Part shown: piece by piece, positions 14,982 to 43,973 of the stretch
Layout of the letters: every line of letters starts with the position of its first letter
Position numbering within the stretch: position 1 is the stretch's first letter
Assembly (NCBI RefSeq): GCF_000455345.1
Contig: NZ_HG315690.1
Span: forward strand, 1,377,742-1,441,741
From: Halopiger goleimassiliensis
Lineage (GTDB): Archaea > Halobacteriota > Halobacteria > Halobacteriales > Natrialbaceae
Reading direction: 5' to 3'
Length of the DNA stretch: 64,000 bases
The notes under the pieces: model-generated
What the model was told of the DNA's origin: nothing
The model's input: the letters and a program-made list of their open reading frames with translations, nothing else
Databases searched by the model: none
Program-made: the position numbers and the translations under genes

Positions 14982-15512
14982 TCGGTTCCTGTACTTCCTG
15001 CCGAACGTTCAGTCCAGCCCGTGTAAGTATCGTTCCGTCCTACCCCACCAGCCTGCGGTGGCGCGTGCTATCGAGCGGCCGACCGAGAGGGAGGTCGCTC
15101 GATGAAACCGCGCGAGGGATGAACGAGCGACTAGTGCGGGACCGAGGTCCCGCATACCATGCGAACGGGCACAACGTGCCCGTGAGCAGACGACGGGAGC
15201 GAGTGAATCGGCTGGGGAGGGTGTGGCCACTCCCCGTGTCCACGATAGCAGAACGCTTCAATTCGACATCCTCCGTTCGACCTCACCGTTCAGTGTCACG
15301 TAGGCCAGAGAGAGCGGACCGACCTCCCGCTACCAAGCTTTTCCGAGCCGTCAGACCGTCCAGACCGCTACATCGCCCGGAAACGAGCCCGGAAACGAGC
15401 CCGCGGATCGACCGACGGAACGCCGGTGGCGCGTGGTACCACGCAACAAGGCTTATTAGCACCCCCTTCGTAGCGTCGGGTGAGGACCGACGGAATCGGT
15501 CCGTGTGACGCA
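14982..15512. other. 531-bp gene-free region
   Basis: It contains the structured repeat described at 15008-15263. To its right are a doubled 12-mer CCCGGAAACGAG (15376-15387 and 15388-15399), the palindrome GCGTGGTACCACGC at about 15432-15445, and an A/T-rich GGCTTATTAGC near 15450-15460 that may be the promoter of the next gene. Open frames in the region are low-complexity and not convincing. Confidence 0.6.
15008..15263 (+). repeat. structured dispersed repeat, copy 1
   Basis: About 256 bp homologous to 43523-43773, which lies in the opposite orientation. Hairpins in order: TCGAGCGGCC/GGTCGCTCGA (15071-15080 and 15093-15102), TGCGGGACC/GGTCCCGCA (15135-15143 and 15146-15154), ACGGGCAC/GTGCCCGT (15165-15172 and 15176-15183) and GGGGAG/CTCCCC (15214-15219 and 15230-15235). 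The last lies in the best-conserved stretch (GGGGAGGGTGTGG...CCCCGTGTCCACGATAGC). It has no protein-coding character. It is probably a non-autonomous mobile element or structured RNA. Confidence 0.8.
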
Positions 15513-15824
15513 ATGAGTTCCCCAGCACCGGAACCCGAGACGCACGAGGTGACGCTCTCCAGAGAAGAGCAGTGGGTCGTCCACCACGCCCTGACGACCC
15601 GGATCGACGAGGCCATCGACGCCGACGAGGAGCCGCCCGAGTGGGCGCTCGAGGCCCTCGACGCGATCGAAGCCGGCCGGGAGACGTTTACCGGCCGCCA
15701 AGCGACGGCACTGGTCGACCTGCTCGAGCGCTATCTCGACGAAAAGCCAGTTCCGGAGTCCGACAGCGTCCACGGATCGGCCGTCCGCGACCGACTCGAG
15801 GACACCCTCGAGTCCCGAGCCTGA
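15513..15824 (+). CDS. small conserved haloarchaeal protein
   Basis: A 103-aa acidic cytoplasmic protein of a type I recognise as common in haloarchaea but without a known function. The core THEVTLSREEQWVVHHALTTRIDEAID is followed by an EWALEALDAIEAG helix and a TGRQATALVDLLERYLDE helix, so it looks all-helical. The ATG at 15513 is preferred over 15480 because the conserved region begins close to it and the upstream residues overlap the promoter-like stretch. It stands alone between the repeat-bearing spacer and a convergent membrane protein gene. Confidence 0.75.
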   Translation: MSSPAPEPETHEVTLSREEQWVVHHALTTRIDEAIDADEEPPEWALEALDAIEAGRETFTGRQATALVDLLERYLDEKPVPESDSVHGSAVRDRLEDTLESRA

Positions 15825-41142: not shown

Positions 41143-41445
41143 GTGAGTTCCGAGAAGAAACGCGTGCAGTTTCGCGCCCCTGATCGTCTCATCGATCGAG
41201 CGGATGCACTCGCGACGGTACTCGGTTCGGATCGGACGGACGTCCTCGTGACCGCGCTTCGCGAATACCTCCGTGAAGCGACCCACGACGACGACCTCAA
41301 ACAGGAGATCGCAGCCGCGTACTACGACGACGAGATCACCTTCGAGCAACTTGTCGACCTCGTCGGTCGGGAGGAAGCGGCGAACTTCCGGGTCCTCAAG
41401 CGGCAGCTCGACGACGACTACATCGACGAACTCGCCGAACTATAG
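41143..41445 (+). CDS. ribbon-helix-helix antitoxin-like protein
   Basis: A 100-aa protein starting with GTG. Residues about 5-45 (KKRVQFRAPDRLIDRADALATVLGSDRTDVLVTALREYL) read as a ribbon-helix-helix DNA-binding domain: a short strand, then two helices. The acidic C-terminus (DEITFEQLVDLVGREEAANFRVLKRQL) resembles the UPF0175-type antitoxin tail that contacts the toxin. The next gene starts at the base after the TAG stop. It should neutralise the PIN toxin and repress the pair through the palindromes upstream. Confidence 0.82.
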   Translation: MSSEKKRVQFRAPDRLIDRADALATVLGSDRTDVLVTALREYLREATHDDDLKQEIAAAYYDDEITFEQLVDLVGREEAANFRVLKRQLDDDYIDELAEL

Positions 41446-41958
41446 ATGCCGGAGCTGGTCGCCGATACGTCGGCACTCGTCAGCCTCGGGATCGCCGACG
41501 ACCACGAGCCCGCTCCGCTCGAGCTACTCGAGGAGGCGTACGAACTCGTCGTTCCGCAGCCCGTCGACCGTGAACTCGAGGAGATCGCCTCGTACGACGA
41601 CGAACACGGCACCGCGGCGGGGAACGTTCTCGAGCACGTCTCCGACGAACGGTTGTACGACGTCGCCCTCGACGAAACGTTTCCCCTCGACGAGGGCGAG
41701 AACGCGGCCGTGAGTCTGGCGAACGAACGGGAGAGCGACGTCCTCCTGTGCGACGAGTTCAACAGTCTCGGACTCATCCACGCGTCGCTCGCCGACACCC
41801 GCCTCGTAACGACGCCGACGCTGCTCTCGTCGTTTACGCGGCGTGGAAGGCTGTCCCCAAACGAGGCGATGTCACTGCTGGATACGATCGCAACCGCACG
41901 GAGCTGGGACGGGAACACCTACGTTAGCCGGGTTCGGTCTCGTCTCGAGGCGGACTGA
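41446..41958 (+). CDS. PIN-domain toxin (VapC-like)
   Basis: A 170-aa protein of the PIN fold. Acidic metal-binding residues appear in the usual order: VADTSALVSLG at the N-terminus, PVDRELEEIASYDDEHG, LDEGENAAVSLANERESD and LLCDEFNSLGLI. PIN toxins are ribonucleases that cut tRNA or mRNA. At 170 aa it is longer than typical VapC (about 130), with an extra helical C-terminus. It is abutted to the antitoxin gene, so one message is likely. The target RNA is unknown. Confidence 0.85.
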   Translation: MPELVADTSALVSLGIADDHEPAPLELLEEAYELVVPQPVDRELEEIASYDDEHGTAAGNVLEHVSDERLYDVALDETFPLDEGENAAVSLANERESDVLLCDEFNSLGLIHASLADTRLVTTPTLLSSFTRRGRLSPNEAMSLLDTIATARSWDGNTYVSRVRSRLEAD

Positions 41959-43340: not shown

Positions 43341-43973
43341 GTCCCATCACTCGGTGCGGCGGGCGTAACACGTTTTCCTTTCGTCGGACGTTTCGAGACC
43401 GTTCAGTTACGGGGGCCGAGAATCGAGGGGACATTCTCAGCATCGACGACGTCGGATCGAACGACGCGTCGGTCGGTCCCTTTGTCCGAGTATTGATCGG
43501 GGTGTTCGTTAGAGGACTCGGTGAAACGAAGCGTCCCGCTATCGTGGACACGGGGAGTAGCCACACCCTCCCCAACCGATTCGTTCGGTCGCTACGCTCC
43601 CTCACTCATCCACTGGAAGACGCAAGCGTCTTCCAAGCCTTCGTTCGCTCAGCTCACGAAGACCTCGCGCGATTTCGTCGATCGACCTCGTAGTCACTCG
43701 GTCGATCGACAGCACGCGCCACTACAGACTGCCAGGCGAGGTACGAAACGATATCTACACGACCTGTACTGAGCGTTGTCCCGATCAGCGTCCGGATATG
43801 CGAACCGTTCTACGTCACCCGTTGGCGTTGCGACGACAGGCGCGGCATCGATAGACGGGGTAAACCAACGAGTCGAGCGAGTGGATCCGAACGCCGTCCG
43901 TAACATCCTCCGTTCGCGGCCCGCGAAGGCGGGCGTAAGAGACATACAGCCCCAACCCTTGGTAGCTACACAC
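43341..43973. other. 633-bp gene-free region
   Basis: It holds the structured repeat, copy 2 (43523-43773). The left part (43341-43522) and right part (43774-43973) contain no convincing gene; frames there are shadows. On the right, the promoter of the following metalloprotease-like gene should lie near 43930-43970. Confidence 0.6.
43523..43773 (-). repeat. structured dispersed repeat, copy 2
   Basis: About 251 bp, homologous to 15008-15263 in reverse orientation. The shared stem is TCGATCGACC (43678-43687) with GGTCGATCGA (43700-43709), which is copy 1's TCGAGCGGCC/GGTCGCTCGA with a compensatory G-C to T-A change. A GGAAGACGC/GCGTCTTCC hairpin (43615-43623 and 43626-43634) replaces the two hairpins of copy 1. 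The CTATCGTGGACACGGGG...CCACACCCTCCCC block is the best-conserved part. No protein-coding character. Confidence 0.8.

Follow-up and report, generated by a model that had tools for sequence, protein, structure and literature searches.

The window analysed here is a stretch of 64,000 nucleotides from the genome of Halopiger goleimassiliensis (the host genome below), and it contains two copies of a structured repeat. Copy 1 is found inside the 534-bp gap between a NUDIX gene and a DUF7853 gene. The initial annotation had already placed both copies, in opposite orientation, and their limits as found here are slightly longer at the 3′ side (Table 1). A conserved 5′ leader, shared by over 20 genomes of the family, is also observed before the DUF7853 gene (GAGGACCGACggaaTCGGTCCGTGTGACGNAATG, hairpin GGACCGA/TCGGTCC), at 15484-15513 of the window and at the orthologous sites L338-L366; it may be a small regulatory leader or a translation element.

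Table 1. Positions of the two element copies and of the parts of copy 1 (window numbering; R1, covariance model of the element)
Feature	Position	Strand	Remarks
Copy 1, whole element	15006-15299	+	limits approximate, where similarity between copies ends (flank alignments, 39 copies); R1 hit 15052-15259 (E 1.4e-26)
5′ tail of copy 1	15006-15055	+	conserved CGWTCAGTACAGGyyGTGTAGnTAnCGTTCCG...; its first motif, CGTTCAGT, is found again at the 3′ end
Closing stem P1, 5′ strand GCGCG	15061-15065	+	partner 15109-15113; 99% paired in 20 copies, changes G.U only
Main covarying stem P2	15071-15080/15093-15102 (part 15071-15102)	+	covariation in host-genome and diverse copies
P2 interior	tandem GA 15081-15082/15091-15092; inner 2 bp 15083-15084/15089-15090	+	loop GAGA
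P1 3′ strand CGCGC and near-invariant GCGAGG	15109-15117	+	host-genome copy alignment
Variable middle	15118-15205	+	perfect hairpin 15135-15142/15147-15154; GA-interrupted hairpin 15161-15187
21-nt block AATCGGCTGGGGAGGGTGTGG	15206-15226	+	conserved across haloarchaeal genera
3′ hairpin	15207-15246	+	ATCG 15207-15210/CGAT 15243-15246; GGGGAG 15214-15219/CTCCCC 15230-15235; 96-97% paired in host genome
3′ tail GTGTCCACGATAGCAGAACGCTTC...CACCGTTCAGTGTCAC	15236-15299	+	flank alignments
Copy 2, whole element (locus L069)	43490-43775	-	limits approximate; R1 hit 43528-43728 (E 3.8e-23)

The element is about 225-450 bp long across copies. Its core consists of a hairpin closed by GCGCG/CGCGC and carrying tandem GA/GA mismatches, a variable middle with perfect hairpins, and an invariant AATCGGYTGGGGAGGGYGTGG block. 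The family layout starts with a 5′ tail (CGWTCAGTACAGG...), followed by GGCGCGCGCTG, a roughly 10-bp hairpin with a sequence that varies from copy to copy, and CGCGCGAGG; the middle, 23 to 246 nt long, then leads to the block and the 3′ tail, whose end motif resembles the 5′ start. Copies of the Natrialbaceae type have a hairpin and TCCACGATAGC between the block and the 3′ tail. Copies in other haloarchaeal families keep the 21-nt block with a different downstream sequence, at loci that were chosen by that block. Many hairpins share one pattern of a stem, a GA/GA tandem mismatch, 2 bp and a small loop, in which the inner 2 bp vary (CC/GG, AC/GT, GT/AC, GC/GC). Extra hairpin modules occupy one of three places: the middle, the first hairpin's loop or the loop of the 3′ hairpin. 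An outer stem GCGGT/ACCGC was considered as the closing stem and rejected, being 90% paired and thus weaker than GCGCG/CGCGC. The 3′ tail motif (GATAGCAGGACGCTTC...) is tandemly repeated with a spacing of 30-60 nt on the 3′ side of some copies (L041, L045, L046, L049, L051, L053), and three units are seen in the 3′ flank of L046.

Our DNA search identified at least 40 element loci in the host genome. This is a lower bound, since about five weaker copies came to light when 400 kb of copy-rich chromosome were rescanned with the model; in 400 kb of copy-poor chromosome the model scan found no clear copy. Tandem or split weaker copies are observed at G000:C1:2621080-2621377 and 2627411-2627728. 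The first 40 loci are split 33:7 between the strands, from which we claim no strand bias along the chromosome because they are 40 of 79 candidates and the 400-kb rescan found further, mainly minus-strand copies. The GC skew of the chromosome gave no replication direction. With the covariance model R1, built from 20 host-genome cores, matches are found in 87 of 121 genomes and 22 of 29 genera of the family and in 108 of 293 genomes of the order, and in the phylum sample searched none lies outside the order. This search, which the initial annotation had proposed, thus extends two copies to a large family with covariation, present among others in Natrinema, Haloterrigena, Natronococcus, Natronorubrum, Haladaptatus, Halorussus, Halogranum, Halobium, Halococcus and Halolamina. 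In Haladaptatus and Halolamina (L195 5400-6000, L234 7816-7970, L255) the block is followed by GCGGTGCGGTTGC and by GTGGGACTGAAAGGGGC-like or GCGGGATTGAAAGGGGC-like motifs. They represent a second haloarchaeal repeat, which presumably resembles the 3′ end of CRISPR repeats.

The copies have no match in Rfam 15 at the gathering score, nor at E<=1 or 0.5, and their reading frames on either strand have none in Pfam or NCBIfam. Neither the core sequence nor a description of the element turned up in the open literature searched, a search that lay apart from subscription papers, supplements and ISfinder. The suggestion of a possibly undescribed element is therefore supported, and the family is apparently an undescribed, abundant structured repeat of haloarchaea. 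A viral origin was rejected: two pattern matches in viral_contigs (L099, L100) are unrelated phage-like coding sequence, and no phage record matched.

The main stem was said to covary between the two window copies, and this is exact. It is formed by TCGAGCGGCC/GGTCGCTCGA in copy 1 and TCGATCGACC/GGTCGATCGA in copy 2, where a G-C pair is replaced by T-A and a G.T wobble by A-T. A compatible change claimed for a second stem (CAC versus TAC opposite GTG) had to be dropped as not structure-preserving, because other copies have A or G at this position. Among the 20 host-genome cores, 95% of the alignment cells are paired and 9 pairs are changed on both sides, with a covariation of 0.283, compared with 0.141 after shuffling and no more than 0.08 after sliding. 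For 47 diverse copies, in an alignment that leans towards the structure because it was fitted to the model, the value is 0.384 against 0.142 in shuffles, and changes on both sides occur in 21 of 27 pairs (187 cells against 63 in shuffles). Single-sequence folding gives z scores of -4.9 for copy 1 and -3.3 for copy 2.

The wobbles are strand-specific, with 37 G.U against 6 A.C. The plus strand is predicted to be more stable than its complement in 204 of 210 cases with RNA parameters and in 201 of 210 with DNA parameters; the mean z scores against dinucleotide shuffles are -2.41 for the plus and -1.80 for the minus strand (70 copies), so that part of this difference is base composition. One strand of the element is under selection to fold. 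The selected RNA structure originally proposed thus holds as a selected fold, with covariation above that of shuffles, while its RNA nature does not follow from covariation alone because the folded single-stranded DNA of a mobile element gives the same signal. The folding data fit single-stranded RNA and single-stranded DNA equally and do not discriminate between them.

The middle hairpins of the two window copies differ as described in the initial annotation, which supports the idea of a variable arm. The middle module of copy 1 is 97-98% identical in the copies L033 and L036, and copy 2 carries an alternative module with a GGAAGACG/CGTCTTCC hairpin. Copy pairs whose middles are 90-99% identical are mostly far less alike outside them. 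In L031/L034 the middle is 97.6% identical, the 5′ domain 74% and the 5′ flank 72%; in L033/L070 the values are 96.7%, 72% and 80%. L032/L040 is an exception and similar throughout. As middles are alike while 5′ halves are mostly less so, modules have been exchanged between copies. In addition, loops of hairpins that have the same arms occur as reverse complements (TCC/GGA, TCT/AGA, GCCA/TGGC, AAC/GTT) in 10 pairs, together with no reverse-only and one complement-only pair. The pooled null gives 5.0 pairs and reached 10 in 16 of 2000 trials. Such reverse-complement loops are suggestive of palindrome inversion at the DNA level.

Among the loci retrieved, 23 other genomes have the NUDIX and DUF7853 genes side by side, and none of these carries the element. 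Since copy 1 is missing at all 23 syntenic orthologous sites, it is a lineage-specific insertion. At a site downstream of rnhA in Natrinema, the element is present in 11 of 29 genomes, two of them with remnants that have deletions, while 14 show a compact gap and four other surroundings. The inner modules at this site differ by species, and in all 28 species pairs formed by the eight intact copies divergence is greater for the element than for rnhA. The element's presence there may alternatively reflect retention combined with repeated losses. At the Pus10-DUF5781 site, synteny is absent in 29 relatives.

All 49 tabulated copies are intergenic. Their orientations relative to the neighbours are (+,+) 17, (+,-) 14, (-,-) 10 and (-,+) 8, with a tandem split of 17:10 and no clear preference. 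Neither a TATA-like AT peak at a fixed place nor a T-run is found in the composition up- and downstream of the copies. These observations are more readily explained by insertion between genes than by a gene that has its own promoter. We detected no target duplication at the copy flanks, where the 5′/3′ similarity is 9.4 within a copy and 9.3 between copies, and the motifs at the element ends resemble each other in direct, not in inverted, orientation. Empty orthologous sites are too diverged for alignment across the junction, and no near-identical recent insertions are seen among the copies. Convergent pairs with 3′ ends facing each other at about 45 bp are observed at G104:C1:470607-470942, G104:C1:487181-487514 and G119:C11:73865-74198, and at 94 bp in L154. 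In these pairs, the tails that face each other make up a long inverted repeat.

A tnpB-less IS200/IS605-type element with a guide-RNA-like end had been offered as the identity of the repeat, together with the check whether relatives flank tnpB genes. R1 matches nothing at 30 tnpB loci in 6 genomes (best E 0.86), and what follows the structured core on its 3′ side in 39 copies is not a copy-specific guide but a conserved tail. The Y1 transposase (PF01797) is absent from the host genome and from 12 of 34 high-copy genomes with at least 19 model hits each, which rules it out as a required partner. The offered identity was therefore abandoned. A reverse transcriptase was rejected as a required partner as well, PF00078 (RVT_1) being found in only 2 of 121 genomes. 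With Y1, tnpB loci and RVT_1 examined, neither a mobilising enzyme nor an autonomous relative was found, so that mobilisation in trans is a step which we infer.

We interpret the repeats, with a probability of about 0.6, as a haloarchaea-specific family of mobile repeats that are structured and non-autonomous and are mobilised in trans by a putative enzyme. The folded plus strand, most likely as single-stranded DNA, would be recognised by this enzyme, which would be neither a Y1 transposase resident in the host genome nor a reverse transcriptase. Recognition would rest on P1, P2 and the invariant block, with the middle as tolerated cargo whose palindromic modules may be gained, lost and swapped by gene conversion among copies. 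Selection on still-mobile copies would maintain the structure, and copies at fixed sites would drift or be deleted.

A multiplied non-coding RNA useful to the host, either regulatory or in 3′-UTRs, whose transcript folds and whose conserved parts bind a protein, is an unlikely alternative. It would account for the strong covariation with strand polarity and for the 21-nt block that is invariant across genera. Tandem GA mismatches are typical of RNA, and they are present in the element. However, promoter-like AT peak and terminator are both lacking, orientation relative to the neighbours shows no preference, no common neighbouring gene was seen, copy 1 is missing in 23 of 23 syntenic relatives, and the element diverges faster than the adjacent gene.

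That the repeats are degenerate, PATE-like ends of IS200/IS605-type transposons, structured as single-stranded DNA and formerly moved by a Y1 enzyme that now acts in trans or has been lost, seems to us quite improbable. None of the 30 tnpB loci has the element, and Y1 is missing from the host genome and the 12 high-copy genomes, although strand-polar folding suits a single-strand mechanism and parallels with PATEs exist (PMC3119063). A structural repeat acting at the DNA level, such as a cruciform or a REP-like site serving replication, recombination or a nucleoid protein, with gene conversion as its sole means of spread, is very improbable. A double-stranded cruciform would favour neither strand, yet the plus strand beats the minus strand in 204 of 210 cases; on the other side stand the convergent pairs and the excess of reverse-complement loop alleles (10 pairs against 5.0, 16 of 2000). 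Returning to mobile repeats, it is rather doubtful, though conceivable, that the family represents a new haloarchaea-only class of transposable elements, in which a self-folding single strand with an enzyme in trans carries swappable palindromic cassettes, or else a functional RNA whose modules would set its specificity.

The PATEs of Haloquadratum walsbyi are transposase-free and palindromic, cause no target duplication and are themselves hit by small palindromic elements (PMC3119063). The present element is similarly haloarchaeal, with many diverged copies, palindromes and palindromic units inside palindromes; it is too short for a transposase gene and has neither terminal inverted repeats nor target duplication. 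By analogy, its mode of action may be PATE-like. However, the IS605-related termini of PATEs were not recovered at the 30 tnpB loci, a survey of tnpB loci and not of other IS605 loci, and for this reason we refrain from classing the element among the PATEs. It further differs in its long ordered core, invariant 21-nt block and strong covariation, the PATEs being compared by description and not by sequence. With IS200/IS605 elements and the TnpB omega RNA it shares a strand-specific fold at the element end, but it has no tnpA or tnpB, has no copy-specific guide and was not found at the 30 tnpB loci. Like REP/REPIN and BIME repeats it is intergenic and palindromic, and these bacterial repeats often occur in inverted pairs, comparable to the convergent pairs here; the element is however about 10 times longer than the REP palindromes of 20-40 bp, and its host genome has no Y1/RAYT gene. 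MITEs are likewise short, non-autonomous and dispersed, but the element has no terminal inverted repeats and no target duplication was found. A retro-mobilised element is not indicated, with RVT_1 in so few genomes.

The family lends itself as a natural test case for two processes: the spread of structured DNA or RNA repeats that have no recognisable transposase, and the gain, flipping and exchange of perfect hairpins in archaea. Annotation would benefit too: reading frames of 66-83 aa across copies were considered as short protein genes, but none of the evidence found here marks them as genes. Elsewhere in the window, at 41143-41958, a small antitoxin-like gene precedes a PIN-like gene, and judging from the sequence the two could form a VapBC-type pair.
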